Shown one piece after another: positions 45,906 to 58,673 of a stretch of DNA of 64,000 bases. How positions within the stretch are numbered: position 1 is the stretch's first letter; each line of letters begins with the position of its first letter. The position numbers and the translations under genes were made by a program. Source of the DNA: Desulfuromonadales bacterium (lineage in GTDB: Bacteria; Desulfobacterota; Desulfuromonadia; Desulfuromonadales; BM103); assembly GCA_014860225.1 (NCBI GenBank), contig JACZKE010000009.1:62001-126000 (forward strand). The letters run 5' to 3'. The notes beneath the pieces are model-generated. The model was not told the DNA's origin. It saw nothing but the letters and a program-made list of their open reading frames with translations, and ran no database searches.

Positions 45906-46565
45906 ATGGCAGAGAAAATGAAATCGGTCAGCCGCCAGGAATTGCCCGCTCATGCAGAGGACTCTGAACTCCTGCCACAACCTGGCGAAGGCCGACTCTC
46001 CCGCGAAGAAAAAAAACATCGGGTGTACCTGACCGCCCGGCGGCTGTTTGTCGAACTCGGCTATCATAAGGTCTCGATCCAGACGATCGTAAAGGCTTCG
46101 GGCGTCAGCACCGGCGCAATCTACAGCTATTTTCCCAACAAGGAGGCGCTCGCCTCCTATATCCATGAGCAAACCCTCGCCGATTTTCAGACCCTGTTCC
46201 TTGAGCGGTTGGAGGGGCGGGAAACAACCCGTGACAAACTAAGTGCTTTTGCCGAGGTGGTATTCGAATTGACCGAGCAGGACCCGGAAGTGATGGAGTA
46301 TCTTCTCTTCATGCGCCACGGTGAGTTCATGCAGGACTGCTCCCCGATCTGTTTCACCGAGCCGTTTCGACTAGTGCAGGGCATCATCAAGCAAGGGATC
46401 GAGCAGGGTGACATCCAGGCGGATAATGTCTTCGTTGCCGGTATCGCTTATACCGGCGTCATCCTCCGTGCCGCCGAATTGCGTCTGAAGTGCGTCCTCG
46501 AGAGGCCACTCACCGACATCGCCGAAGAACTCTTGATCCATGCCTGGAAGGCCATCAGTCCCTAG
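45906..46565 (+). CDS. TetR family transcriptional regulator
   Basis: A 219-aa repressor. The helix-turn-helix (about residues 38-85: KHRVYLTARRLFVELGYHKVSIQTIVKASGVSTGAIYSYFPNKEAL) is typical TetR, with an unusual extra N-terminal tail of about 35 residues. The C-terminal ligand domain has CSPICF and VLRAAELRLKCVL, with four Cys that could sense metalloid or redox changes (inferred). GGAGG lies 8 bases before ATG 45906. A TetR-like palindrome lies downstream at 46760-46773, before extH. Confidence 0.92.
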   Translation: MAEKMKSVSRQELPAHAEDSELLPQPGEGRLSREEKKHRVYLTARRLFVELGYHKVSIQTIVKASGVSTGAIYSYFPNKEALASYIHEQTLADFQTLFLERLEGRETTRDKLSAFAEVVFELTEQDPEVMEYLLFMRHGEFMQDCSPICFTEPFRLVQGIIKQGIEQGDIQADNVFVAGIAYTGVILRAAELRLKCVLERPLTDIAEELLIHAWKAISP

Positions 46566-46721
46566 TCCGCCAAAACACCATCCCCGCAAAGTCCTTTGAC
46601 GTAATCCGACATCTTCCTTCGGAACTTCCCCGCCTCTTGCTATCTCTCCGCCGGCGCGCAAAAAAGTAAAACAAGCTAATTGTGTTTAATTAATTGGTTT
46701 ATGTTAACCTGAGTCCGCCTA

Positions 46722-46737
46722 TGGCACGTCCATTGCA
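46722..46737 (+). promoter_or_regulatory. Sigma-54 promoter of the ext operon
   Basis: TGGCACGTCCATTGCA fits the sigma-54 consensus TGGCACG-N4-TTGCW completely, with GG at -24 and GC at -12 in correct spacing. The start site would be near 46748. An AT-rich block lies just upstream. Confidence 0.88.
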
Positions 46738-46759
46738 AAGTGTTAGATTTTGCCAATAG

Positions 46760-46773
46760 AATGAACGTTCGTT
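46760..46773. promoter_or_regulatory. TetR-type operator candidate
   Basis: AATGAACGTTCGTT is a palindrome with one mismatched pair. It starts about 12 bases after the predicted transcription start. TetR operators of the GAACG-CGTTC kind are common, and the TetR gene ends 195 bases upstream. Confidence 0.6.
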
Positions 46774-46939
46774 TTAGCTCCACTGCAACGCTTTGCAGCG
46801 TGCTACGGGGCCCAGGAATTCAGTTAAAGGCCAGAATGTGGATTTTTCATTCGTTGTTCTGTCAAAGAAAGGAGGTGACAGAAGCAGGAGGCCAAGGACA
46901 GAGCGATAACCATTATCATTTAACAGGGAGGTTTCATAA

Positions 46940-48256
46940 ATGAAAAAGATTACTTTATTCAGGCAGGGCATCGTCATGCTGTCGATGTTGTTACTTGCCG
47001 CATCGCTTACCTTTACCGGTTGCGGCGGGAGCTCCGACAGCTACGATGAGCCTTCAGCCGCCCAAACGGCTCCGATTGCTGGGCAGACCCAGAGTGTACT
47101 GATCGATGCGGCCACTTTGAAGGGCTGGGTTGACAGTGGTTTGGTCAACAATGATGACGATTGGGAGAAGGTGGTCATTCTCGATGTCACCAGCGCGACC
47201 ACCTATGCCGCCGGTCACATCCCCGGGGCTCAGCTCTGGGCAGGGAACAGCGGCATCGACCGCTTTGATGGCCCGGTGCTCAGTGGCAACATGGTGCTTG
47301 ATGGCGCCGCAATGGACGCTGCGCTGCAGAGCTACGGAATTGATGAGAGAACGACGGTCGTTTTTGCAGGCTCCGGTAATCCCGGCCGCATCTATTTCAT
47401 GTTCCGTTACTGGGGTTTCCCGAAAGACCGCCTCAAGGTTCTCAATGGCGGGAAAGGCGCTTGGACCGCTGCCGGCTATGCTCTGACCCCTATAGCTCCT
47501 GATGTGGAGCCCTCCACCTACAGCGTGAGGGATCTTTCGTTTAATCCCAATGTGCGTGCGGCTCTCAATGAGTTTATCATCGGCGTCGAAAACGACACTG
47601 TCGCGCCCGTGAATACCCTGGTGAACAATACCGATAAGGCCGGCGGCACGACAGGTATTTTTGATCCGTCAGGCGACTATGTCATTTTCCAGGGCCTTAT
47701 CGAAGGTGGCGTGAATGTTGGTTATGCTAATTTCTACGAAGGTGGTTCTACTACAGCCCCGTTAAAGAGCGTTGACGAGCTCAAGACCCTTCTTGAAACG
47801 AACGGGGTTGACGGTTCCAAGCCCATTATCACCTACTGCCGGGCCGGCAATGCTGCTTCTTATGGGTTCCTGCCGATTGACGCGGCCCTGGGATGGGATG
47901 TCATGGTCTATGACGGTTCCTGGAGCCAGTGGGGCAGTTTGACCAATGAGACCGAGGCCGCCTTTGTACCCGATGCCAGCTACGCTCTGCCGGCACTGCT
48001 GTCCGAGTGGTCTACAGATGTTTTGGTTGACCAGCATAAGTTGGAAAATGACGGCGCGTTCTTCCCTGGGCCTTACTACAATATTAACCTGGGGCTCACC
48101 ATTGAAAAACCAACCTTCCGTATCGTGGAAGGTGCCCTAAGCCCCTATGATGCAGGCGCCAACAGCATTGAGATCGAGGACCGGGAGTATTTTGAAACTC
48201 TTCCGGAAGGGGGTGCTCCGACCTCTGGTTCAGGTGGTTCCGGCGGCGGTTGCTGA
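46940..48256 (+). CDS. extH: Rhodanese-like lipoprotein of the selenite/tellurite reduction operon
   Basis: A 438-aa lipoprotein; the lipobox LTFTGC has the lipid Cys at about residue 28. It has two rhodanese domains. The first (about 60-180: VVILDVTSATTYAAGHIPGAQ) has VVFAGSGNPG where the active Cys should be and is probably inactive. The second (about 230-340) has ITYCRAGNAAS with the catalytic Cys. The tail is Gly/Ser-rich and ends in a Cys (GGSGGGC). Position and architecture match ExtH of Geobacter. GGGAGG lies upstream of ATG 46940. Confidence 0.92.
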   Translation: MKKITLFRQGIVMLSMLLLAASLTFTGCGGSSDSYDEPSAAQTAPIAGQTQSVLIDAATLKGWVDSGLVNNDDDWEKVVILDVTSATTYAAGHIPGAQLWAGNSGIDRFDGPVLSGNMVLDGAAMDAALQSYGIDERTTVVFAGSGNPGRIYFMFRYWGFPKDRLKVLNGGKGAWTAAGYALTPIAPDVEPSTYSVRDLSFNPNVRAALNEFIIGVENDTVAPVNTLVNNTDKAGGTTGIFDPSGDYVIFQGLIEGGVNVGYANFYEGGSTTAPLKSVDELKTLLETNGVDGSKPIITYCRAGNAASYGFLPIDAALGWDVMVYDGSWSQWGSLTNETEAAFVPDASYALPALLSEWSTDVLVDQHKLENDGAFFPGPYYNINLGLTIEKPTFRIVEGALSPYDAGANSIEIEDREYFETLPEGGAPTSGSGGSGGGC

Positions 48257-48271
48257 TTCAATCTTATGCGG

Positions 48272-48301
48272 ATCGCTCCACTCCGCCATTGGGCGGAGTG
48301 G
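48272..48301 (+). other. Intercistronic hairpin extH-extI
   Basis: Perfect 13-bp stem GCTCCACTCCGCC/GGCGGAGTGGAGC with loop ATTG. No T-run follows, so it is more likely an mRNA-stabilising or processing element than a terminator. Confidence 0.75.
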
Positions 48302-48326
48302 AGCCTCATGAAAAAGGAGACTTTCT

Positions 48327-49517
48327 ATGTCAAGGCTTAAAAGGGTTGGGTTATTCTGTGCAATAACTGCGGCGTTCTGCCTGGTGGCAGGGGCCGCATT
48401 CGCCGGTCCGACCTGGACGTTCGGTCCCGAGGACCAGGGGCTGCTCAAACTCGAGTACAAGGGGCAGTTCCAGCTGAATATGCGTGATGACGGTGCCGAA
48501 GCCGATGGTGACGGCGACACCAGTGAATTCAACTTCCGCCGCAACCGCATCGCTCTGATGGGCGCCTACGGCGAGCACTTCGGCCTGTATGTGCAGACCG
48601 AGTACACCGAAGACGTCAACATCGGTCCGCTGTCGGTGTCCGACGGCAGCGACAACGAGTTCCAGCTGCTCGACGCGGTGATGCGCTTCCGCTACGACGA
48701 CCGCGCGCAGTTCTGGCTCGGCAAATACAAGTATAGTTTCACCCGTGAGAACCTCGAAGCCTGCGAGATGCCGTTGACCCTCGACCGCTCGGTGCTGATC
48801 CGCGCACCGCTGGCCAGTGAAGGGACCCGTGACAAGGGTGTGACGCTGTGGGGCAACCTGTTCGACCAGAAGTTCCAGTACCGCATCGATGCCATGAACG
48901 GACGCAACGACTCAACCTCGAGTCCGGAATCGGCCTTTCGCTATGGCGCTCGCGCCCACGTCACCCTGCTCGATCCGGAGAGCAATCACGGTTATCGTGG
49001 CACCTACCTGGGTAAGAAAAAGGTGCTGACCATCGGCGCCGCCTACCAAATGGAAAAAGACGTCGCCTACGCAAACACCGTGGCCCAGACCGACGCGGTC
49101 GACTACGAGGCTTGGACCGTCGATGCCTTCTTCGAATACCCGGTGGCTGAGGTCGGAACCTTCACCGTGTCGGCCGCCTATGCCGACTACGATCTCGACG
49201 ACGCCTACCAGGGTGCCAATCCAGATTCAGGGGTCATCGGCCAGAATGGCGAGAAGAACGGCGGCTACGTCAAGGTCGGCTACATGCTGCCGAACCTGCC
49301 GCTGCAGTTCTTTGCCCGCACGGAGAACTGGTCATTTGCCAACCTCGATGGTGTGTACGACCAGGAGGTCGACTGGTACGGCGGTGGCATCAACTACTAC
49401 TTCCGCGGCCAGGATCTGAAACTGACCATGGAGGTTTCACAGGTCGACTACGACACGGAAGGCCCCGAGTGTGAGGACTTCGTGACCTTCACCACCCAGC
49501 TGCAGCTGATTTTCTAA
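48327..49517 (+). CDS. extI: Outer-membrane porin of the selenite/tellurite reduction operon
   Basis: A 396-aa barrel with a signal peptide (MSRLKRVGLFCAITAAFCL... ending AAFA) and a final strand ending LQLIF. The phosphate-selective-porin-like strands (LLKLEYKGQFQLNMRDDG, FNFRRNRIALMGAYGEHFGLYVQTEYTED, FWLGKYKYSFTRENLE) match ExtI. In Geobacter extI was reported as needed for selenite and tellurite reduction (recalled, not checked). AAAGGAG precedes the ATG. Confidence 0.92.
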   Translation: MSRLKRVGLFCAITAAFCLVAGAAFAGPTWTFGPEDQGLLKLEYKGQFQLNMRDDGAEADGDGDTSEFNFRRNRIALMGAYGEHFGLYVQTEYTEDVNIGPLSVSDGSDNEFQLLDAVMRFRYDDRAQFWLGKYKYSFTRENLEACEMPLTLDRSVLIRAPLASEGTRDKGVTLWGNLFDQKFQYRIDAMNGRNDSTSSPESAFRYGARAHVTLLDPESNHGYRGTYLGKKKVLTIGAAYQMEKDVAYANTVAQTDAVDYEAWTVDAFFEYPVAEVGTFTVSAAYADYDLDDAYQGANPDSGVIGQNGEKNGGYVKVGYMLPNLPLQFFARTENWSFANLDGVYDQEVDWYGGGINYYFRGQDLKLTMEVSQVDYDTEGPECEDFVTFTTQLQLIF

Positions 49518-49531
49518 ATTATCCAACCGCG

Positions 49532-49560
49532 GCGCCGGCAAACTGAACGTTTGCCGGCGC
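49532..49560 (+). other. Intercistronic hairpin extI-extJ
   Basis: Perfect 12-bp stem GCGCCGGCAAAC/GTTTGCCGGCGC with loop TGAAC, followed by TGCCCATTTTCC. Very stable but with only a weak T-run. Confidence 0.75.
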
Positions 49561-49586
49561 TGCCCATTTTCCAAAGGAGTAAAGCA

Positions 49587-49829
49587 ATGAAGAAACAAAT
49601 GTTGGTTCTGATGATGGTCGCGGCATTGGTTATGGCCGGTTCGCTGGCGTTTGCCGCCAGCACTCACATCAAAGGTAAAGTGACCGCGGTCAGTGGCTCG
49701 ACAATTACCATCGAAGTGGAAAAAGGCAGCGCCGCTGACGTCGCCGTGGGCGACAGCGTTGAAGTCCAGGTCAAGGGCGCAGTCAAGGCCGCCCCGAAGA
49801 AGGGCGGCGACATGCTGCAAGGCTGCTGA
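49587..49829 (+). CDS. extJ: Small secreted protein ExtJ
   Basis: An 80-aa exported protein. The signal peptide MKKQMLVLMMVAALVMAGSL ends near FAA. A small beta-rich domain follows (HIKGKVTAVSGSTITIEVEKG, VGDSVEVQVKG), then a basic tail ending GGDMLQGC with a terminal Cys. It matches ExtJ of the selenite/tellurite operon. AAAGGAG lies upstream of ATG 49587. Its role is not known; the terminal Cys, like that of ExtH, may hold Se/Te or anchor the protein. Confidence 0.85.
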   Translation: MKKQMLVLMMVAALVMAGSLAFAASTHIKGKVTAVSGSTITIEVEKGSAADVAVGDSVEVQVKGAVKAAPKKGGDMLQGC

Positions 49830-49890
49830 TCCGTAATCGTCATGGCGCCCGGTGATCATGGCCTGGCGCTTTTATCGTGAGGGAGTTTAC

Positions 49891-51243
49891 ATGAAGAGCA
49901 ATAGCTTGTGGATTGTGCTGGCGCTCGCCTTGGTCCTTGTGCCGTTCCTTGCCCTAGCGGGCGATGAAGGGACCGGCAGGGACAAGACGATTGCCGCCAA
50001 ACAAGGGAAGGCGAATACGATCGCCGAACTGGTCGCGATGTACGACTCAAGTTCGTGCGAGGAGTGCCATCTCGATATTCACGCCGACTGGTTGAAGTCA
50101 GCCCATTCCCGGTCCATCTTTGGTACCGGACGTACCGCCGCCACCTTCCGCACCACGATCCTCAACGGTTGCATGGAATGGCCGTATTCGGGCGTTAAAG
50201 AATTCGAAGAGGTCAAGGTGGAGCACCTGCAGGGGTGTACCAAGTGCCATCTGCCGCAACTGGCTGATGCCACTGACGAAGTCGCTCAGGAGATGATGAA
50301 CACCATCCTGACTTTTATGAAAGCCTACCAGGAAGGGGACACTGAGACCTTCGAAAAGAACAAGGCCACGCTACTGAGTCTGAACATCAATTGCCTTGTT
50401 TGCCACAACCGTAACGCCATCGTCCACAAATGGACTGACGGTTATCCTCAGCAGGGGGTCGTCTATGGTTCTATGGAAGGTGAGCATCCGAGCGATGACT
50501 TCCCGGCTATGGCGAAAAGCCCTATCATGAAGGAATCAATCCTGTGTGGTCAGTGCCATGGCCTCGGCCCGAATTTCGAGCTCGAAAACCCGACCCAATG
50601 TGCTACCGCCTATGGCAGCTACCTGTGGGCATACAAGGCGGAAGGTGGGCGTGAGACTTGCCAGGAATGCCACATGCACAAAACCGGCCTGGGGCACAAC
50701 ATGCAGAGTTACCGCGACCCGGGGATGATCGAAGCGGCGCTGGATTTCGACGTAGAAGCATATGGGATGCACTGGCGGGACGGCAGCCTCGTATCACCCA
50801 AGGCGGTGGTCAAGGTGGCGATGACCAATAAGACCGGCCACAGCATCCCTGATGGCTGACCGACCCCCAACCGACTGGTTCTGTCGGTAAGCGTAAAAAC
50901 CAAGGATGGCAAAGAGTTGCTCAACGAAGAAAAAATCTACATGCCGGTGCCGCAGCAGATGGGCCGGGGCGACCGTATGGGGCGTGGCCCCTATGAGAAG
51001 AGCGGCATCATCGAAGACACCGGGTTGCCACCGCACAAGACGGTGGAGGAGCGCTTCGAGGTGCTTTTCCCGGTCGAGGACATCACTAACGACAGTGGTC
51101 GGGTTATTGACCGCAAGCTGCTGGCCAACGAGCTGGATGTGAAGGTCGAGCTCTGGTATCTCCCCTATGGAACCCGGAATTCGGACCCGTTCCTCTGGCG
51201 CGAGGCTGCCAAGACCATCAGCATTAGCACGGAAGGCAGGTAG
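49891..51243 (+). CDS. extKL: Multiheme c-type cytochrome selenoprotein ExtKL (in-frame TGA read as Sec)
   Basis: A 450-aa periplasmic cytochrome read through TGA 50857-50859 as selenocysteine 323. The signal peptide (about 1-23) ends ALAG. Five CxxCH motifs: CEECH, CTKCH, CLVCH, CGQCH, CQECH. The reading continues smoothly after TGA: TGHSIPDG-U-PTPNRLVLSV, a beta-rich C-terminal domain to TEGR and TAG. A SECIS-like hairpin follows the TGA directly. Without readthrough it would look like two genes (extK, extL). Start ATG 49891 has GAGGGAG upstream. Confidence 0.88.
50860..50887 (+). promoter_or_regulatory. SECIS-like hairpin after in-frame TGA of extKL
   Basis: The lower stem CCGAC/GTCGG (50860-50864 with 50883-50887) and upper stem AACC/GGTT (50869-50872 with 50877-50880) close a GACT loop. 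It starts immediately after the UGA, the position of bacterial SECIS elements bound by SelB. Confidence 0.75.
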
Positions 51244-51279
51244 CGTTCAGTTCCTCCTGATATGGGATGCAATTCCTTC

Positions 51280-51322
51280 GGCTGACGACTGCAATTTGGC
51301 AGTCGTCAGCCATACTTTTTTT
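51280..51322 (+). terminator. Terminator-like hairpin extKL-extM
   Basis: Perfect 13-bp stem GGCTGACGACTGC/GCAGTCGTCAGCC followed by ATAC and seven T. It would reduce expression of extM-S relative to extH-KL, or those genes need another promoter; none is obvious in the 30 bases before extM. Confidence 0.85.
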
Positions 51323-51351
51323 CACAAGCTATTCATGGTACATTCCCACGA

Positions 51352-53208
51352 ATGACGCTCTTTGCCCGCCCAGCATTTTTATTGCACTGCCGCCGAATTT
51401 TCAGCGGTATGGTGCTGTTCGCCCTGGGCCTTGGCGCCCTCAGCCTCGCCGGTTGCGATCTGGCTGCAGAGTTCGAGACCAGTTGTACGTTCTGTCATCG
51501 TGGTCTGGAACATGCCTCGCCGGCCCATACCGACTGCGCCGATTGCCATGGTGGCAATCCGCGCGCCTGGGACAAGCGGCTGGCGCACCGAAACATGCAC
51601 GGCAAAAAGAACCCGTCTGATCCACAAGTCTGGGAAAAAACTTGCGGTCGCTGTCACCCCGACCAGCTGGCCAGGGTGAAATCGACCCTGATGACCACCA
51701 ACACCGGAATGATCCACAATATTCAATTGACCTGGGAGGGAGAGGATGGCCGGCAATACGGGGCGAAATCGCTGCAGACGTTCGATGCTGCAGGAGAGCC
51801 GCTTGAACTGGCCGGGGTTAAGGATCTCGACCACTTGTCCGGGGAACTCTACCGCAAGTTCTGCGCTCTCTGCCACGTAGGGCTGGAATCGAACCGGGTC
51901 TGGGCCGGCAGCCATGCCAGCGGCTGCGCCGCCTGTCATTTCCCCTACAATGACAATGCCACCTACCAGGGGGGTGATGCCACGGTGCAGCAACAGTGGC
52001 CCTACTCCGAGACCCACCGGATGGCGTCGTTGCCGGACAACCGGGTCTGTCTGCGCTGCCACAACCGCAGCGGTCGCATTGCTCTGGCCTACCAGGGACT
52101 CAACGACGGCAACAACGGCCTGGTGCCGACCATGGGTGGCGAGCCGGGCCCGGTGATGCTAGGCGGGGTCCGCAACGCCGTGCACATTGCCGCCGACATT
52201 CATTTCGACAAAGGGATGGACTGCATTGACTGCCACACCTCCCGCGATCTCATGGGTGACGGCTACAGCTACCGCAACATGTACCACCAGGTGGAGATTG
52301 CCTGCGAGGACTGCCACGGCACTCCGGACGAGCTACCGCACACCGCACGCATCGATCGTGAAAACGCCGAACCGCTGCGGGAATCGCGCAATTATGCCGT
52401 GCCCCTCGAGTACGGGGCCGAGATGGTGCTGACCGCACGCGGGCGGATGTATTCCAATGTCGTGCGCGACGAAGGCAAATTCTGGGTCATCGGCAAGCGC
52501 AGCGGCAAACGCCACGAAAGCAAAGTGATCACTGGAACTGCCGAGCATGACATTCCCGGACACAAACGGCTGGAGTGCTACAGCTGTCATTCCCGGGCAG
52601 TTCCGCAATGTTTCGGCTGTCACACCGAATACGACCAGTCGGGCCGCATGACCGATTTCATAAAGGGTTACGAGACACCGGGGGCCTTCAGCGAAAGCGA
52701 AGACTACCGTGCTCTTTATCCCTTTCCCCTGGCTCTCAACCAGCGCGGGCGAATTTCTCCGGTGACGCCAGGCTGCCAGACTTTCGTCACCGTCCGCGAC
52801 CAGCGTGGCGAGCTCCTGCAGGAGGAGTATGTGGCTCGTTTCAAGGGACGCAACCAGTTGCGTTTTGCACCGTTCTACTCGCACAATACCGGAGCGAAGG
52901 CGGTCGGCTGTGGCGAGTGTCACAGCAACCCGGCTTTCCTCGGTTTTGGTCAGAGCGTGCTTACTAACGGTGAAATCGAAGCGACCCTGCTCTGTGAGAA
53001 ATCGGCGGAAAAGCCTCTCGACGGGTTCATTACCATGTCGGAAGGCAAGACCAGGGCGTTTTCCGCGATTACCCGCGAAGAGTCGCGGCCGCTCAACGGG
53101 GCCGAAGTGCAGCGGGTTCTGGCGGTCAACCTCTGCCTGATCTGCCACGCCAACCCACAGGATCCGATTTACGCCCAGGAACTCGACTATGGACGGCTTG
53201 AACGGTGA
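51352..53208 (+). CDS. extM: Dodecaheme c-type cytochrome lipoprotein ExtM
   Basis: A 618-aa protein with 12 CxxCH motifs (CTFCH, CADCH, CGRCH, CALCH, CAACH, CLRCH, CIDCH, CEDCH, CYSCH, CFGCH, CGECH, CLICH). The N-terminus has basic residues, a hydrophobic run and lipobox LSLAGC (about residue 35), so it is probably a lipoprotein. The start ATG 51352 lacks a good ribosome site; ATG 51409 is possible but loses the basic residues. It matches ExtM, an electron-transfer cytochrome. Confidence 0.9.
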   Translation: MTLFARPAFLLHCRRIFSGMVLFALGLGALSLAGCDLAAEFETSCTFCHRGLEHASPAHTDCADCHGGNPRAWDKRLAHRNMHGKKNPSDPQVWEKTCGRCHPDQLARVKSTLMTTNTGMIHNIQLTWEGEDGRQYGAKSLQTFDAAGEPLELAGVKDLDHLSGELYRKFCALCHVGLESNRVWAGSHASGCAACHFPYNDNATYQGGDATVQQQWPYSETHRMASLPDNRVCLRCHNRSGRIALAYQGLNDGNNGLVPTMGGEPGPVMLGGVRNAVHIAADIHFDKGMDCIDCHTSRDLMGDGYSYRNMYHQVEIACEDCHGTPDELPHTARIDRENAEPLRESRNYAVPLEYGAEMVLTARGRMYSNVVRDEGKFWVIGKRSGKRHESKVITGTAEHDIPGHKRLECYSCHSRAVPQCFGCHTEYDQSGRMTDFIKGYETPGAFSESEDYRALYPFPLALNQRGRISPVTPGCQTFVTVRDQRGELLQEEYVARFKGRNQLRFAPFYSHNTGAKAVGCGECHSNPAFLGFGQSVLTNGEIEATLLCEKSAEKPLDGFITMSEGKTRAFSAITREESRPLNGAEVQRVLAVNLCLICHANPQDPIYAQELDYGRLER

Positions 53209-53238
53209 AGGGCACGAAGCAATCGGAGCTGATGACTG

Positions 53239-54468
53239 ATGGCGGTTAACGGACAAATTCAGGTATTCTGGCTGGCAGTGGTTCTGCTTCTGCTGATGGT
53301 CGGCCCGGTTCGGGCGGCGGAGTCCGGCGTCAACCAGCAGTTGCCGGTGCGGGGGGCGCATGCCGGCCTGGCTTGTGCCGACTGCCACAGCGGCGAAAAC
53401 CAGGGAGGACAGATCTCTGTCTGTATTGACTGCCATGCCGACCAGCAGGGCGTCTTGCACGAAGCGATGGCTCACCGCCGCAGCGAGCAGGCCTTTGCCG
53501 CGGCGGCATTTGACAAGTACGACCCGCAATTTTTCGAGAAAAATTGCAGCAGTTGCCATGTCATCGGCTGTAGTGACTGTCACAGCGGCGGCGCCCACGC
53601 TACCGCCCGACCAAGCCGGGAAGACTGTCACCGCTGCCATCGCGGCTATTTTGTCGGCGCCGACTACTGGGGGCTGGCGCCGCGCGAAGACAGCCAGCGC
53701 TACCAGCGCGGCATCGACGTCGATGGCGAGAAATATCTGAAGATGCGTCCCGACGTGCATGCCGAGGCCGGCCTTGACTGTGGCGACTGCCATTCCATGG
53801 CGAGCCTGGCCGCCGGCTCGCCTGGTAAGGGGTGTCGCGACTGCCATCAGCCTGATTCACGCATCATCGAGCATCGCATTGCCGCCCACCTTGAAAGACT
53901 CGAATGCTACGCTTGCCACGCGGCCTGGGGCGCTCAGGAGTACGGCAGTTTTTTCCTGCGCGTGGCAGACAACCCGATGGGCGACATCTTCCAGGTGAGG
54001 CGGGAACCGGGGAGCGAATACCTGCGCAGCGCCTACCTGAAGCGTCAGGACGCGCCACCACTGGGATGGAACGCGGCCGGCCGGGTGAGTCCGATTCGTC
54101 CGCAGTTCATCGCCTATTACAGTGATCTGCGAGTAGGCAGCAAGCTGGAAAATGTTCTGGCCGCGGCGCAATGGAAAGCCTATGTCCCGCATACGATCCG
54201 CCGCGGGACGGTCGCCTGTGATGCTTGCCACGACGATCCGCGCCGGTTTCTGCTCGAAGCGGCAGAGCGACGCATCTACCTGCCGGACAAAGACGGTATG
54301 ACCCTGCCGTCGTTCTGGGACAGCGAAGGACAGACACTGAGCAACGGCCGGTTTTTCACCCCTGAGGAGTTTGCCCGCCTGTCTCGGCGGAGTCCGGAAT
54401 ACGTGCGGAGCTACATAGAAAAATGGAAAAACCTCGTCAAACACGTCGACACTTCCTCAGAGCGCTGA
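53239..54468 (+). CDS. extN: Nonaheme c-type cytochrome ExtN
   Basis: A 409-aa periplasmic cytochrome with signal peptide (about 1-27, ending PVRAA) and nine CxxCH motifs: CADCH, CIDCH, CSSCH, CSDCH, CHRCH, CGDCH, CRDCH, CYACH, CDACH. Hemes 3 and 4 are packed closely (CSSCHVIGCSDCH). GGAG lies about 10 bases before ATG 53239. Its end overlaps the Rieske gene by 46 bases. Confidence 0.9.
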   Translation: MAVNGQIQVFWLAVVLLLLMVGPVRAAESGVNQQLPVRGAHAGLACADCHSGENQGGQISVCIDCHADQQGVLHEAMAHRRSEQAFAAAAFDKYDPQFFEKNCSSCHVIGCSDCHSGGAHATARPSREDCHRCHRGYFVGADYWGLAPREDSQRYQRGIDVDGEKYLKMRPDVHAEAGLDCGDCHSMASLAAGSPGKGCRDCHQPDSRIIEHRIAAHLERLECYACHAAWGAQEYGSFFLRVADNPMGDIFQVRREPGSEYLRSAYLKRQDAPPLGWNAAGRVSPIRPQFIAYYSDLRVGSKLENVLAAAQWKAYVPHTIRRGTVACDACHDDPRRFLLEAAERRIYLPDKDGMTLPSFWDSEGQTLSNGRFFTPEEFARLSRRSPEYVRSYIEKWKNLVKHVDTSSER

Positions 54469-54812
54469 TTCTGGCCCTGGCAGCGGTGCCGTTATGGCGC
54501 TTTCTGACTCCTCGCATGACAGCGGTCAAACCGGTGTTGCGGATCGGCCGGGACACGATTCCAGTCGATGGAGCTCTGGTCTATCGCGAGTCGCGGGTGG
54601 CGGTCATGCGTACCGCTGATGAGATTTATGCGCTCAACCTGACCTGCACCCATCTCGGATGCACCGTCAGCATCACTCCGAACGGTATCGTTTGTCCCTG
54701 TCATGGCAGTACCTTTAACCGGGCCGGCGAGGTGCTGAGCGGCCCCGCTTCCCGTCGGCTCGACCGGCTGGAGGTCAGGATTGAAGGCGACGACGTGGTG
54801 ATTTTTAGTTAG
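54423..54812 (+). CDS. extO: Rieske 2Fe-2S subunit ExtO
   Basis: A 129-aa Rieske protein. A twin-arginine start (QTRRHFLRA, residues 6-14) and one hydrophobic helix suggest Tat-dependent membrane anchoring; tatB-tatC lie 9 kb away. The cluster motifs are CTHLGC (Cys75, His77 ligands; Cys80) and CPCHGS (Cys91, His94 ligands; Cys93), with a Cys80-Cys93 disulfide expected. It pairs with the b-type subunits ExtP/ExtQ. Confidence 0.93.
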   Translation: MEKPRQTRRHFLRALILALAAVPLWRFLTPRMTAVKPVLRIGRDTIPVDGALVYRESRVAVMRTADEIYALNLTCTHLGCTVSITPNGIVCPCHGSTFNRAGEVLSGPASRRLDRLEVRIEGDDVVIFS

Positions 54813-54853
54813 TTTTCGTCCGGAGTTTCCGGATGGACACTGAGGGAGCATGC

Positions 54854-55474
54854 ATGGTCAAAGATTTTGTGAGCCACCTCTTCCCGCGGGTTGTCCTCCG
54901 CAATAATTTGCGCCTGAGCTATACGTTATGTCTCGGTGGTCTGGCGTTTACCGCTTTTCTGTCGCTGGTCGTCTCCGGGACGCTGTTGCTCTTCTACTAT
55001 GCGCCGACCCCGGGCGGAGCCTTTGAGTCAATTCTCTTTTTTGAAGCGCAGGTCCCTGGCGGCCGCTATCTGCGCAGTCTGCACCGGGTCGCTTCACATG
55101 CTTTTCTGGTATTGATCTTTCTGCACGTCCTGCGGGTCATCCTCACCGGTGCCTACCGCCATCCCCGTGAGTGGAATTGGGTCATCGGTTTTCTGCTGCT
55201 CGGTCTCGGCTTGTTCGAAGCTTATACCGGCTACCTGCTGCCGATGGACCAGCTGGCTTTGTGGGCAACCCAGACCGGTATGGAGCTGCTGGCGACCCTT
55301 CCGGGCGGCGGCCTGCTGCGGACTTTCCTGGTGCCGGACGGCATCGGCCTAAAGCTGTCGCTGCTGCGTTTCTATGCCCTGCATATTGCCATTCTGCCGT
55401 TGACGATTTTGACACTGAGCCTGCTGCATTTTTACCGGGTGCGCAGGAATAAAGGGCTGCTCCCGTATCTATGA
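54854..55474 (+). CDS. extP: b-type cytochrome membrane subunit ExtP (cytochrome b6-like)
   Basis: A 206-aa membrane protein with four helices. Heme ligands: helix B His-x13-His (LHRVASHAFLVLIFLH) and helix D His-x14-His (LHIAILPLTILTLSLLH). The 14-residue spacing in helix D is that of cytochrome b6 rather than mitochondrial cytochrome b. Quinone-site-like GYLLPMDQLALWATQ is present. ATG 54854 has GAGGGAG 5 bases upstream. The TGA overlaps the extQ ATG. Confidence 0.92.
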   Translation: MVKDFVSHLFPRVVLRNNLRLSYTLCLGGLAFTAFLSLVVSGTLLLFYYAPTPGGAFESILFFEAQVPGGRYLRSLHRVASHAFLVLIFLHVLRVILTGAYRHPREWNWVIGFLLLGLGLFEAYTGYLLPMDQLALWATQTGMELLATLPGGGLLRTFLVPDGIGLKLSLLRFYALHIAILPLTILTLSLLHFYRVRRNKGLLPYL

Positions 55475-55884
55475 AGAACTACCTGAGGAGCTCGCCACAT
55501 TTTTTCCGCCCCGTCAAGATTGCTTTCGTCATCGGCGTGGCTGTCCTGTTGCTGCTTGCCTGGCTGTTTCCGGCGCCGCTTCAAGAGGCTGCCGATTACG
55601 GCCGGGTGCCGAATCCCGCGCGATCCGCCTGGTTTTTACTCTGGATGCAGGAGCTGGTCAGTTATTCATCTCGCTTGATCTACCTGATCGCGGCACTGGC
55701 GGTCATTTTTGCCGGACTCCCATGGCTTCCCGGGTTAGCGGCTGCGGAGCGGGCATGCTGGCTGCCAGCCGATCAGAAGAGAGTGAATCGGGTGACATTG
55801 ACTGTTTTTGTCGGCATCATCGCATTAACATTGATCGCCATGTTCTTTCGGGGGCCAAATTGGGCGCTGGTCGTACCGTTCTGA
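55471..55884 (+). CDS. extQ: b-type cytochrome membrane subunit ExtQ (subunit IV-like)
   Basis: A 137-aa membrane protein with three helices. GRVPNPARSAWFLLWMQEL resembles the PNPxxxxWYFLxLQE region of b6f subunit IV/C-terminal cytochrome b. It overlaps extP (ATGA) and runs past the start of the next cytochrome gene. Together ExtO-P-Q would form a quinol-oxidising complex. Confidence 0.88.
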   Translation: MKNYLRSSPHFFRPVKIAFVIGVAVLLLLAWLFPAPLQEAADYGRVPNPARSAWFLLWMQELVSYSSRLIYLIAALAVIFAGLPWLPGLAAAERACWLPADQKRVNRVTLTVFVGIIALTLIAMFFRGPNWALVVPF

Positions 55885-56690
55885 TCCTGTTGCTGCTCTT
55901 CGTGCCGGTGCTGGCGATCGCCGCAGGGAGCTGCGGCAAGTGTCATGCGCCGCATTACGAAGTGATCGGCAGCTGCATGATGTGCCATCGCGGCGATCCG
56001 CGCACCGACCGTCCCGACCTTGCCCATGCCAATCTGATTGGCGGCCGTTTCGCCTATTTCGCCTTGCCCGACAGCCCGGTGACGCAATACGGTGGGCAAC
56101 TTCTCGAGAAAACCGGCTGTCGCCGCTGTCATCGCAGCGGCAATAAGGGCAATCTTTTGGCCAGCGATCTGGATCAGCTGCTGCCCGGTGCACGCCCCGG
56201 AGATGTTCTGCAATCGATCCGCCAGCCGGTCCTGTTCATGCCTGATTTCGGTTTTGCCGAGTCGACGGCGACTATACTGGTTAATGCCCTGTTCGCACAT
56301 TCGGCGCAGGCCGAGCGGCCGTCCGGAGAAATACCCATGTTGGTGCATTTCGAAGGGGTGGAGCGGGCAGAGAATCCCTTTGAGAAACATTGCGGCGGCT
56401 GCCACCGGTTATTGACCAAAACCTGGGGGGGATTGGGGCAAGGTAATATTGGTCCGAATCTGTCCGGGCTGTTCAGTGAATTCTATCCCGGATCGTTCAA
56501 GGATGAGGAGCGCTGGTCGCCAGCAAATCTGGAAAAGTGGCTGAAGAATCCGCGAGCGATACGCAAGGCGGCGCGCATGGGTCCGCAACCCTTGAAGCCT
56601 GAAGAGTTGCGCCAGGTATTGTCCTTTTTCGAGACACCGGCTGCTGCCTCCGCCAGCAGTATCCCTCCTGGTTCAGTGGTGGTGCCGTAA
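55860..56690 (+). CDS. extS: Tetraheme c-type cytochrome ExtS
   Basis: A periplasmic cytochrome of about 276 aa with four CxxCH motifs (CGKCH, CMMCH, CRRCH, CGGCH). The likely start is TTG 55860 with GGGGG about 8 bases before it, giving signal MGAGRTVLILLLLFVPVLA. The frame is open upstream only inside extQ. Geobacter ExtS is called a lipoprotein; here the first Cys after the signal belongs to a heme motif and no good lipobox is seen. It completes the ext operon. Confidence 0.85.
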   Translation: MGAGRTVLILLLLFVPVLAIAAGSCGKCHAPHYEVIGSCMMCHRGDPRTDRPDLAHANLIGGRFAYFALPDSPVTQYGGQLLEKTGCRRCHRSGNKGNLLASDLDQLLPGARPGDVLQSIRQPVLFMPDFGFAESTATILVNALFAHSAQAERPSGEIPMLVHFEGVERAENPFEKHCGGCHRLLTKTWGGLGQGNIGPNLSGLFSEFYPGSFKDEERWSPANLEKWLKNPRAIRKAARMGPQPLKPEELRQVLSFFETPAAASASSIPPGSVVVP

Positions 56691-56729
56691 TCCTGTAAAC
56701 AGTGCCTTGTCCGCGGTAATTGTTAATGT

Positions 56730-56878
56730 TGATGGCGTCGCAAAAAGTCCACCCTACGGCGTTATGACGTTTTTTCAGGACCTCGACATACCATATGTAT
56801 GCCTTCGTCCCTGAAAAAACACCAAGCCTTGTAGGATGAATTTGCTTAGCCATCCCATAAGTTTTTGCGAGTGCATCA
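56730..56878. repeat. 149-base MITE with 4-base target duplication
   Basis: Terminal inverted repeats TGATGGCGTCGCAAAAAGT and (inverted) TGATGCACTCGCAAAAACT match at 15 of 19 positions. ATGT flanks both sides (56726-56729 and 56879-56882). An inner stem GTTTTTTCAGG/CCTGAAAAAAC is present. No coding capacity. Confidence 0.7.
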
Positions 56879-56907
56879 ATGTTGTACGCCCTGAAAGGAG
56901 ATTGATT

Positions 56908-57645
56908 ATGCCTGGTTTGAAAGTTCTGCTGACCCTGATCGGACTGGCGATGCTTGGCGCGGCAGGCTGCTCGCCGCTGCACACCGAGATCGATTTGAGT
57001 TACCGCTGGTCGACGGTATCCGCTGTGACTCTGGAGGCGCCGGCGCAGGATCCCTGGAAGCTGGCACCGGTGATGCGCCAGGAACTGCAGGATCTGGGTT
57101 ATGTACTGACACTGCCGGAATCCGGCACCCCGGACCTGATCGTACGTTTTGACACCCAGGATGCTCGCGACTTAACGCGGGAGGGCTTATTGGTCATCCG
57201 ACCCAAAAGCCTGCATGTCCAGTTAGTTGATCCGGGCAGCGATACCTTACTGGCCGTGGCCGACTATTTTATGCGCAGCGATGAAGATCCGGCCACCGGT
57301 ATGCGAACGGCCCTCGCCGGCCTTTTTCAGCGCATTCTAAAAGCCGACTCCAGCCCGCCAACGATGGTGCGCAGCCAGAGTCAGGAGCCAATCCCTGCGC
57401 AGGAGAAGAGGCTCGAGAGTGAGTCACCATCTGACAAGGCGACGGCAACGATTTCTCCCGCCGCGGGCAACAATGAGCCAAAATCGACGCAGCCGGGAGC
57501 AATAGCGGATCCGCAGCCAGTGACGGTGCCCGCCATCGGCGATGCCGAGCCGATGGTCCGGCCTTTGAAGCAGTCCCCCTGGGCCCCGCGCTTCAAATCC
57601 TGGGGTTTTGCTGATTGGGGCAAAGCTGATGATGCCGAGCGCTGA
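56908..57645 (+). CDS. Hypothetical lipoprotein
   Basis: A 245-aa lipoprotein: signal MPGLKVLLTLIGLAMLGAAGC with the lipid Cys at residue 21. Residues about 25-150 look folded (TEIDLSYRWSTVSAVTLEAP, TPDLIVRFDTQDARDL, SLHVQLVDPGSDTLLAVADYFMRSD). The remainder is a low-complexity Pro/Ser/Glu/Ala linker ending FKSWGFADWGKADDAER. I do not recognise the family. AAAGGAG precedes ATG 56908. It follows the MITE and may be a separate unit from ext. Confidence 0.8.
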   Translation: MPGLKVLLTLIGLAMLGAAGCSPLHTEIDLSYRWSTVSAVTLEAPAQDPWKLAPVMRQELQDLGYVLTLPESGTPDLIVRFDTQDARDLTREGLLVIRPKSLHVQLVDPGSDTLLAVADYFMRSDEDPATGMRTALAGLFQRILKADSSPPTMVRSQSQEPIPAQEKRLESESPSDKATATISPAAGNNEPKSTQPGAIADPQPVTVPAIGDAEPMVRPLKQSPWAPRFKSWGFADWGKADDAER

Positions 57646-57813
57646 CCGGCCTGCACTTGTCGGTCCGGATTGAAGCGTCGTCGTCGATGCCTTGATAGCG
57701 TTGCACGCTGATCCGAAACAACGGATGCTGGTCGTCGAGAACCTGCTCGGTAATACCGCCAAGTATTTTGCGATCCTGATGCCCGGATCGAAATCTTTAC
57801 CAGCTTTTACCCC
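57646..57813. other. Intergenic region with possible gene relic
   Basis: On the minus strand (about 57789-57660) one frame reads ILGGITEQVLDDQHPLFRIS and continues protein-like (QRYQGIDDDASI), but it lacks a start and runs into the lipoprotein gene antisense. It may be a gene fragment. Nothing else was seen. Confidence 0.25.
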
Positions 57814-57842
57814 TTGACCGTATCCGGATAAGCGGATATGGT
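57814..57842 (+). promoter_or_regulatory. arsR-arsC-acr3 promoter and operator
   Basis: TTGACC (57814-57819), 17 bases, and TATGGT (57837-57842). An inverted repeat TATCCG-N6-CGGATA (57821-57838) fills the spacer, suited to ArsR autorepression. It differs from the TTGGC/GCCAA sites of the other arsR. Confidence 0.7.
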
Positions 57843-57848
57843 TCCATT

Positions 57849-58193
57849 ATGCAAAAACAAGCCAGAATATTCAAAGCCCTCTCTGATGGAACCCGCCTGC
57901 GTATCCTGGCGTTGCTGCTGGAAGGTGAATTGTGCGTCTGTGACATTATGGCCGCGCTGGAAATGCCGCAGTCGACCATCTCGCGCCACCTGGCTTACCT
58001 GCGCAACAGCGGCTGGGTGCAGGACCGCCGCCAGGGTGTCTGGATGTATTATCGCCTCAGTTCCGGCGATCACGTTCTGATTCGCGATATGCTGCCGTTG
58101 TTGGCTATTCATCTGACCAACAGCGACGAGTACGCTGTCGCTCTGCAAAAACTGCGTCATTTTCAAAAAGAGCAGGGTCAACGCACCTGCTGA
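57849..58193 (+). CDS. arsR: ArsR family arsenical repressor
   Basis: A 114-aa repressor. RIFKALSDGTRLRILALLLEGELCVCDIMAALEMPQSTISRHLAYLRNSG includes the ELCVCD As(III)-binding motif, as in classic ArsR. No good ribosome site is visible and the ATG lies within 7 bases of the -10, so the transcript may be nearly leaderless. It heads the arsR-arsC-acr3 operon. Confidence 0.95.
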   Translation: MQKQARIFKALSDGTRLRILALLLEGELCVCDIMAALEMPQSTISRHLAYLRNSGWVQDRRQGVWMYYRLSSGDHVLIRDMLPLLAIHLTNSDEYAVALQKLRHFQKEQGQRTC

Positions 58194-58244
58194 TTTTTTT
58201 GTCTGAACAACATCTGTTTATGCGGATGGAAAGGAATCGAATTG

Positions 58245-58673
58245 ATGCCAGACAAACCACGAATACTGTTTCTCTGCACCCACAACTCCTGTCGTTCGCA
58301 GATGGCCGAGGGCTTGGTCAACCACTTCCTCGGCGACCACTGCCAAGCGTTCTCCGCCGGCACCGAGACGACCCGGGTCAATCCTCTGGCGGCTCAAGTC
58401 ATGGCCGAGATCGGCATAGATCTCACGCACCACCGCTCCAAAACTTTAGACGAGTTTGCCGGCGAAAAGTTCGACTACGTCATCAGCCTGTGTGGTGACG
58501 CCAATGAGAAGTGCCCGCTGTTCTTTGGTGGTGTCAAGCGGATCCATATGGGATTCGAGGATCCATCAAGGCTGCCCGGCAGTGAAGCGGAAGTACTGCC
58601 CGAATATCGCCGGGTGCGGGATGAAATCAAAACAGCGATGCAGTCTTTTTTCACTGAGGAACTGCATATGTAA
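58245..58673 (+). CDS. arsC: Arsenate reductase, thioredoxin-coupled (LMW phosphatase type)
   Basis: A 142-aa enzyme reducing As(V) to As(III). The P-loop CTHNSCRSQ starts at Cys11 (with Arg17), and the redox pair is Cys83 and Cys90 (LCGDANEKCP), as in the Staphylococcus pI258 enzyme, so it uses thioredoxin. ATG 58245 or the TTG just before it follows AAAGGA. It sits between arsR and acr3. Confidence 0.96.
   Translation: MPDKPRILFLCTHNSCRSQMAEGLVNHFLGDHCQAFSAGTETTRVNPLAAQVMAEIGIDLTHHRSKTLDEFAGEKFDYVISLCGDANEKCPLFFGGVKRIHMGFEDPSRLPGSEAEVLPEYRRVRDEIKTAMQSFFTEELHM

Follow-up and report, generated by a model that had tools for sequence, protein, structure and literature searches.

The ext cluster and the extKL gene

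The window, by which we mean the whole stretch of 64,000 nucleotides analysed here, carries a gene cluster of the extHIJKLMNOPQS type, with the gene order reported for Geobacter sulfurreducens (PMC5877670). The genes, the in-frame TGA within extKL and a metalloregulator gene downstream of the cluster are listed below with their bit scores and the cut-offs of the family models.

46940-48256, + strand: extH, rhodanese-like protein (NF040901, 343.3 bits, cut-off 200)
48327-49517, + strand: extI, porin (NF040900, 684.1 bits, cut-off 150)
49587-49829, + strand: extJ, small protein with a putative start codon (NF040942, 67.7 bits, cut-off 52.5, matched from residue 9 of 49563-49826)
49891-51243, + strand: extKL, pentaheme c-type cytochrome with probable Sec at codon 323 (450 codons plus TAG)
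50857-50859, + strand: in-frame TGA, very probably the Sec codon, residue 323 (TGA in 104 of 111 distinct copies, TGT in 4)
51352-53208, + strand: extM, multiheme cytochrome (NF040943, 1031.9 bits, cut-off 800)
53239-54468, + strand: extN, multiheme cytochrome (NF040967, 594.9 bits, cut-off 200; also NF040968, 602.1 bits)
54423-54812, + strand: Rieske-type iron-sulfur protein at the extO position (best Rieske-type match NF045928, 56.8 bits, below the cut-off of 250)
54833-55474, + strand: extP, b-type cytochrome (NF040969, 214.5 bits, below the cut-off of 290)
55471-55884, + strand: extQ, membrane protein (NF040970, 202.1 bits, cut-off 150)
55722-56690, + strand: extS, multiheme cytochrome lipoprotein, the true start probably downstream of 55722 (NF040971, 327.4 bits, cut-off 100, from residue 53 of the frame)
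57849-58193: ArsR/SmtB-type metalloregulator downstream of extS (100.2 bits, cut-off 55)

Within the cluster, ExtP scores below its cut-off and the Rieske protein has no Ext-specific match. A role in selenite reduction has been shown for ExtI, and that of ExtKL is called preliminary (PMC5877670).

The extKL frame runs from ATG 49891 to TAG 51241-51243, and the TGA at 50857-50859 is its sole interruption. An earlier note, made from the letters of the DNA, had described one TGA in an otherwise open 450-codon cytochrome frame and a conserved domain downstream of it. Both descriptions are borne out, the TGA being codon 323 and the family model NF040886 matching on both sides of it. Read through the TGA, extKL scores 620.8 bits against this model (curated cut-off 250); the part before the TGA alone scores 460.7 bits and the part after it alone 132.8 bits, with a match that begins at residue 1 of that part. 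In NCBIfam the model is entitled “multiheme c-type cytochrome (seleno)protein ExtKL”, in agreement with the statement in the note that ExtKL is annotated as a (seleno)protein in relatives. All five CXXCH heme motifs, starting at residues 56, 116, 168, 219 and 257, lie upstream of the Sec site. From sequence comparison, the TGA very probably codes for selenocysteine.

Selenocysteine machinery of the genome

The genome to which the window belongs (3.94 Mb in 68 contigs) contains selA, selB and selD as neighbours on contig 41 (617.7, 394.4 and 362.4 bits, respectively, all over their cut-offs), and a tRNA-Sec gene on contig 56, which scores 74.9 bits against a gathering score of 47 and is also recognised by ARAGORN, with anticodon TCA. 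The tRNA-Sec model is loose, as it gives over-cut-off matches in 5 of 14 control genomes. The earlier note had proposed a search for selA, selB, selC and selD, with their absence counting against the Sec reading, and all four are present. SelD of the same genome has its own Sec at codon 14 (L018:1492-2575); after that codon, no SECIS loop resembling the one of extKL was seen by eye. All 40 ExtKL genomes of the phylum sample have selA when compared by eye, which is weak evidence because selA is present in 355 of the 395 sampled genomes anyway.

The tRNA-Sec model also matches a second place on contig 56 (L010:1501-1577; G000:C56:133155-133231). This match of 77 bases, at 48.2 bits against the gathering score of 47, is probably another tRNA.

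Conservation of the Sec codon

Genomes were scanned with the ExtKL profile at the level of the phylum (395 genomes, 40 over the cut-off), the class (277 genomes, 63 over the cut-off) and the family (22 genomes, 2 over the cut-off), and an additional profile scan of genome contigs gave 12 ExtKL loci. The class scan listed 70 ExtKL places, 51 of which were read and 19 not; 68 of the 70 have one internal TGA (one of them also a TAG), the other two being fragments that end before the Sec position. After removal of three exact duplicates from 114 rows, 111 distinct copies were compared, among which near-identical copies may remain and one of which (L084) is below the family cut-off at 168.3 bits. 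At the Sec column, 104 of these have TGA, 4 have TGT (Cys), 1 has ATC (Ile), 1 has GTT (Val) and 1 is cut before the column. Thus, homologues have Sec (104/111) or Cys (4/111) at residue 323, a point that the earlier note had asked to be checked. Together with the family match and the sel genes, TGA conservation supports its central claim, namely that ExtKL, encoded in an ext (selenite/tellurite reduction) cluster, is a multiheme cytochrome containing Sec.

Each Cys copy was found in a different genome (G281, G027, G327 and G289), and all four genomes also have a TGA-containing copy. Cys is therefore found in extra copies, and not as a replacement of a sole copy. One of these genomes, G027, holds Sec, Cys and Ile forms together. 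Judged by their sequences, the Ile and Val copies show that the fold would tolerate the loss of Sec, and the NCBI wording “(seleno)protein” suggests that curators were aware of non-Sec forms after 2007.

Some of the non-Sec copies lie in tandem. At L076:559-3250 an Ile form is followed by a Cys form, and at L077 (the same place as L040) a copy truncated by the end of the contig comes after a Val form. The Cys-type copy at L079:686-1567 has an in-frame TAA upstream of the piece that was read, which may mark a pseudogene or a sequence error; its genome also has a TGA copy.

ExtKL is over the cut-off in one of the 11 genomes of the window's genus (several of which are incomplete), namely the window's own, and in two of the 22 of its family. 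This patchy spread suggests transfer or repeated loss.

Codon constraint and the hairpin after the TGA

The codons just past the TGA are under the strongest synonymous constraint in extKL, by a measure that is independent of any RNA fold. Among 42 Sec copies (less than 80% mutual DNA identity, thinned from 56 and mostly outside the class), constraint over 184 columns is highest at codons +6, +8, +10, +11 and +7, counted from the TGA. In 23 class copies, thinned in the same way from 46, the only invariant codons among 128 testable columns are -1 and +5 to +9. Codon +5 is CGA in 41 of 41 distinct sequences of the type found in the window (hereafter window-type), CGA making up 1.4% of the Arg codons elsewhere in these genes.

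Two pairings can be drawn over this region:

50859-50888, + strand: pairing of the earlier note, ACCGAC 50859-50864 with GTCGGT 50883-50888 and AACC 50869-50872 with GGTT 50877-50880 (lowest-energy fold in isolation)
50870-50888, + strand: best SECIS candidate, a 6-bp stem ACCGAC/GTCGGT with a 7-nt apical loop TGGTTCT (50876-50882), the loop 16 nt after the TGA; inner 17-mer 50871-50887 (-9.1 kcal/mol)

CCGAC is present twice, at 50860 and 50871, and both can pair with GTCGG 50883-50887; the two pairings share this 3' arm and are mutually exclusive. When 50857-50900 is folded, the lowest-energy structure is the pairing of the earlier note, at -11.5 kcal/mol. By energy this fold is unremarkable (z -1.88), and since 11 of 200 shuffles fold as well, fold energy alone was rejected as proof of a hairpin. 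What follows the TGA is nonetheless more than chance, and the proof is comparative, namely the recurrence of TGA at this codon in 104 of 111 distinct copies and the synonymous constraint on the codons behind it.

The published bSECIS model calls for an upper stem of 4-16 bp, a loop of 3-9 nt with G in the first two places, a distance of 16-37 nt from the UGA and an energy of -7.5 kcal/mol or lower (PMC13188914). The 50870-50888 hairpin lies within these limits, its loop UGGUUCU having G in second place. In our test, which tolerated one-base bulges, did not cap the stem length and covered 45 nt from the TGA, 41 of 41 distinct window-type sequences passed vs 19 of 205 synonymous recodings, a comparison that treats sequences as independent when they are relatives. 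The 41/41 is partly built in because the group was chosen by eight bases, seven of them inside the 17-mer. This does not hold for the class count, in which the 17-mer CCGAC-TGGTTCT-GTCGG (50871-50887) is identical in 47 of 50 copies (of the 51 read, L138 was too short); it also occurs in one copy outside the set, L063. Among the six non-Sec ExtKL copies, none passes the bSECIS limits and none has either hairpin stem (this one or the second type described below). A scan of 46000-58500 against Rfam gave no SECIS family, its single match being far below the gathering score.

The earlier note had placed a two-part hairpin right after the TGA. Its letter blocks, CCGAC/GTCGG and AACC/GGTT, are present, but the structure they form is probably not the working SECIS, its apical loop being 13 nt from the UGA and thus under the published 16-37 nt. 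We consider it unlikely, though well short of absurd, that this pairing is the functional one. In isolation it is 2.4 kcal/mol more stable than the inner hairpin (-11.5 vs -9.1 kcal/mol); all 41 distinct window-type sequences keep its upper stem AACC/GGTT intact, codon +1 is CCG in 38 of the 41, and the same codon ranks eighth of 128 in synonymous constraint. On the other hand, its 5' arm adjoins the codon being read and would be within the ribosome, and its outer stem CCGAC/GTCGG loses one pair in 3 of the 41 sequences (38/41 complete) while the inner hairpin 50871-50887 is unchanged in all 41. The hairpin at 50870-50888 is therefore, with good probability, the working SECIS.

A second hairpin type

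Most other copies have a different stem, TGGTC/GACCG, found in 50 of 54 distinct sequences (the other 4 are without it), and the three remaining class copies of the 50 are of this letter type. Sequences of this type pass the SECIS limits in 39 of 54 cases (15 fail) vs 32 of 270 recodings, again counting relatives as independent. Two pairs of the stem have changed in both arms: one sequence has A-U in place of G-C, and two sequences have G-C in place of C-G, which may be one event. Eight of the 41 window-type sequences could also form four pairs of this stem.

In all 41 window-type sequences the best loop is UGGUUCU, preceded by C. In the other type it is GGA (27), UGGAU (15), UGGAC (2) or UGGAUU (1) in 45 of the 54, at 22-23 nt from the UGA, the remaining nine being of other kinds. 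Both types thus have CUGG at the loop, with a shift of two codons between them. The SECIS seems to have moved along the gene, with a CUGG loop at 16 nt in the lineage of the window and at 22-23 nt in most others.

Fold and relatives of ExtKL

A structure model of ExtKL from 61 sequences (an alignment from which duplicates, fragments, L084 and L079 were left out) has a mean pLDDT of 91.3 and a pTM of 0.86. The protein is predicted to consist mainly of helices to about residue 283 and of strands thereafter to the end, Sec323 being placed in a loop between predicted strands 300-313 and 328-337. Among residues not belonging to a CXXCH motif, His72, His269, His317 and Cys237 occur in all 61 aligned copies; His179 is found in 53 of these and His199 in 51.

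The model has the fold of pentaheme cytochromes (PHC/c552). Its best fold match is the penta-heme cytochrome c552 of Thermochromatium tepidum (PDB 5ze8; E 6.6e-15, TM 0.54/0.62), which differs in having Ala at the aligned Sec position and shares 18% identity, and the profile match of ExtKL to the group of penta-heme c552 and PHC, a family of cable bacteria, scores 67.4 bits. From models, a paper on cable bacteria lists small pentaheme cytochromes including ExtKL among those with at least one five-coordinate heme (PMC11976967); ExtKL may hold a selenol at such a heme.

Two relatives are closer. ExtKL of G. sulfurreducens (GSU2937-GSU2936) is of the same family and likewise has five CXXCH motifs, the Sec site and an ext cluster, with no difference in kind found. 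MccSep, “Multiheme cytochrome c selenoprotein” (PDB 9wt8, 9wt9, 9wta, 9wtb and 9wtc), aligns over all 450 residues at 704 bits, its sequence not being identical. The five entries comprise two sequences, in which the Sec place is an unknown residue in one and Ala, named U325A, in the other; a literature search found no paper on MccSep. Bacterial selenoproteins with a bSECIS, such as formate dehydrogenase of E. coli, which is unrelated to ExtKL, likewise have an in-frame hairpin after the UGA that fits the published limits. The extKL loop may resemble that of E. coli fdhF.

Reading of UGA323 and a proposed mechanism

We hold it highly likely that extKL encodes one exported protein in which UGA323 is read as Sec. 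Such a protein would carry its pentaheme cytochrome domain at the N-terminus, followed by a C-terminal domain rich in beta strands. SelA, SelB, SelD and tRNA-Sec(UCA) would supply Sec and deliver it to UGA323, and the hairpin, with its loop UGGUUCU 16 nt past the UGA, would recruit SelB, as its conservation and the published SECIS model suggest. When Sec-tRNA is lacking, the ribosome would be expected to stop at the UGA and leave the five-heme N-terminal part. Sec323 would stand six residues after the invariant His317, in a loop GH-xx-PDG-U, and His317 is likely a distal heme ligand. Going by the published role of the cluster, the most likely function is that of a redox-active selenol near a heme that helps to reduce oxyanions (selenite or tellurite, for example), the electrons probably being routed through the Ext cytochromes. 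The earlier note further conjectured that selenium status may feed back on the selenite-reducing pathway.

According to another reading, the operon encodes ExtK and ExtL separately, with the UGA acting as an ordinary stop and a downstream start for the second gene. The gene of G. sulfurreducens is indeed numbered as two loci, GSU2937 and GSU2936 (PMC5877670), and Fujita 2007 kept the two-protein option open (PMC1914089). The earliest in-frame ATG, GTG or TTG past the TGA is TTG 50917, but the 19 codons from the TGA to this TTG are conserved, the post-TGA part matches the family model from its residue 1, and codons -1 and +5 to +9 are frozen. Moreover, no stop stands at the Sec place in any Cys, Ile or Val copy (L079 has its TAA further upstream), and the homologue MccSep is deposited as a single chain of 450 residues. 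The earlier note, judging by eye, had also seen no ribosome site at which translation could restart. We therefore regard two separate proteins as very improbable. That the TGA is a sequencing error, a result which the earlier note had named as refuting, or the mark of a pseudogene, as a lone in-frame stop in one assembly might suggest, has practically no chance, since the TGA recurs at the same codon in many separate genomes (104 of the 111 distinct copies) and the frame past it is intact and conserved.

Building on the preferred reading of one Sec-containing protein, a more specific proposal may be put forward, for which we have rather less than even confidence. Sec323 might be a redox-active or heme-bound selenolate acting with the invariant non-heme Cys237, so as to form a heme-selenol site for oxyanions, and the SECIS might have shifted within the gene, being built from different codons of the same protein segment.

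Relation to earlier work

Sec in ExtKL is already known from the NCBIfam name, a 2026 review and the PDB homologue, and the window adds a further copy in another genome. The ExtKL family was proposed by Fujita 2007 from nine sequences, with neither a SECIS nor a non-Sec homologue noted (PMC1914089). A 2018 J. Bacteriol. paper considered that the TGA may join ExtK and ExtL as one protein (PMC6148476). A 2022 review lists a “cytochrome c family protein” among selenoproteins (PMC9312934), which we take as the ExtKL family because the table of the 2026 review gives the synonym; the latter lists ExtKL as a selenoprotein (PMC13188914). In the accessible portions of the literature, our search found no described ExtKL SECIS.

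The present analysis adds a candidate SECIS in two forms, describes the Cys, Ile and Val copies and shows by count how widely the TGA is spread. This answers two doubts raised in 2007, when neither a SECIS nor a non-Sec homologue had been noted. A pipeline that takes the TGA as the end of the gene breaks ExtKL into two pieces and misses its C-terminal domain, an easy mis-annotation. With its Sec, Cys, Ile and Val forms, three of which share a genome, the family lends itself to asking what selenium adds to a multiheme cytochrome, and its two hairpin types in one gene to asking how a SelB signal shifts within a coding sequence.

Two minor observations concern the neighbours of extKL. NF040968, described as the iron-sulfur subunit ExtO, scores the 409-residue ExtN-type cytochrome at 602.1 bits, near the 594.9 bits of the ExtN model, and the Rieske protein at 54423-54812 gave no match to it at E 0.001; NF040968 looks to have been built on ExtN-type sequences. 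The ArsR/SmtB-type gene downstream of extS is a candidate for a local regulator.
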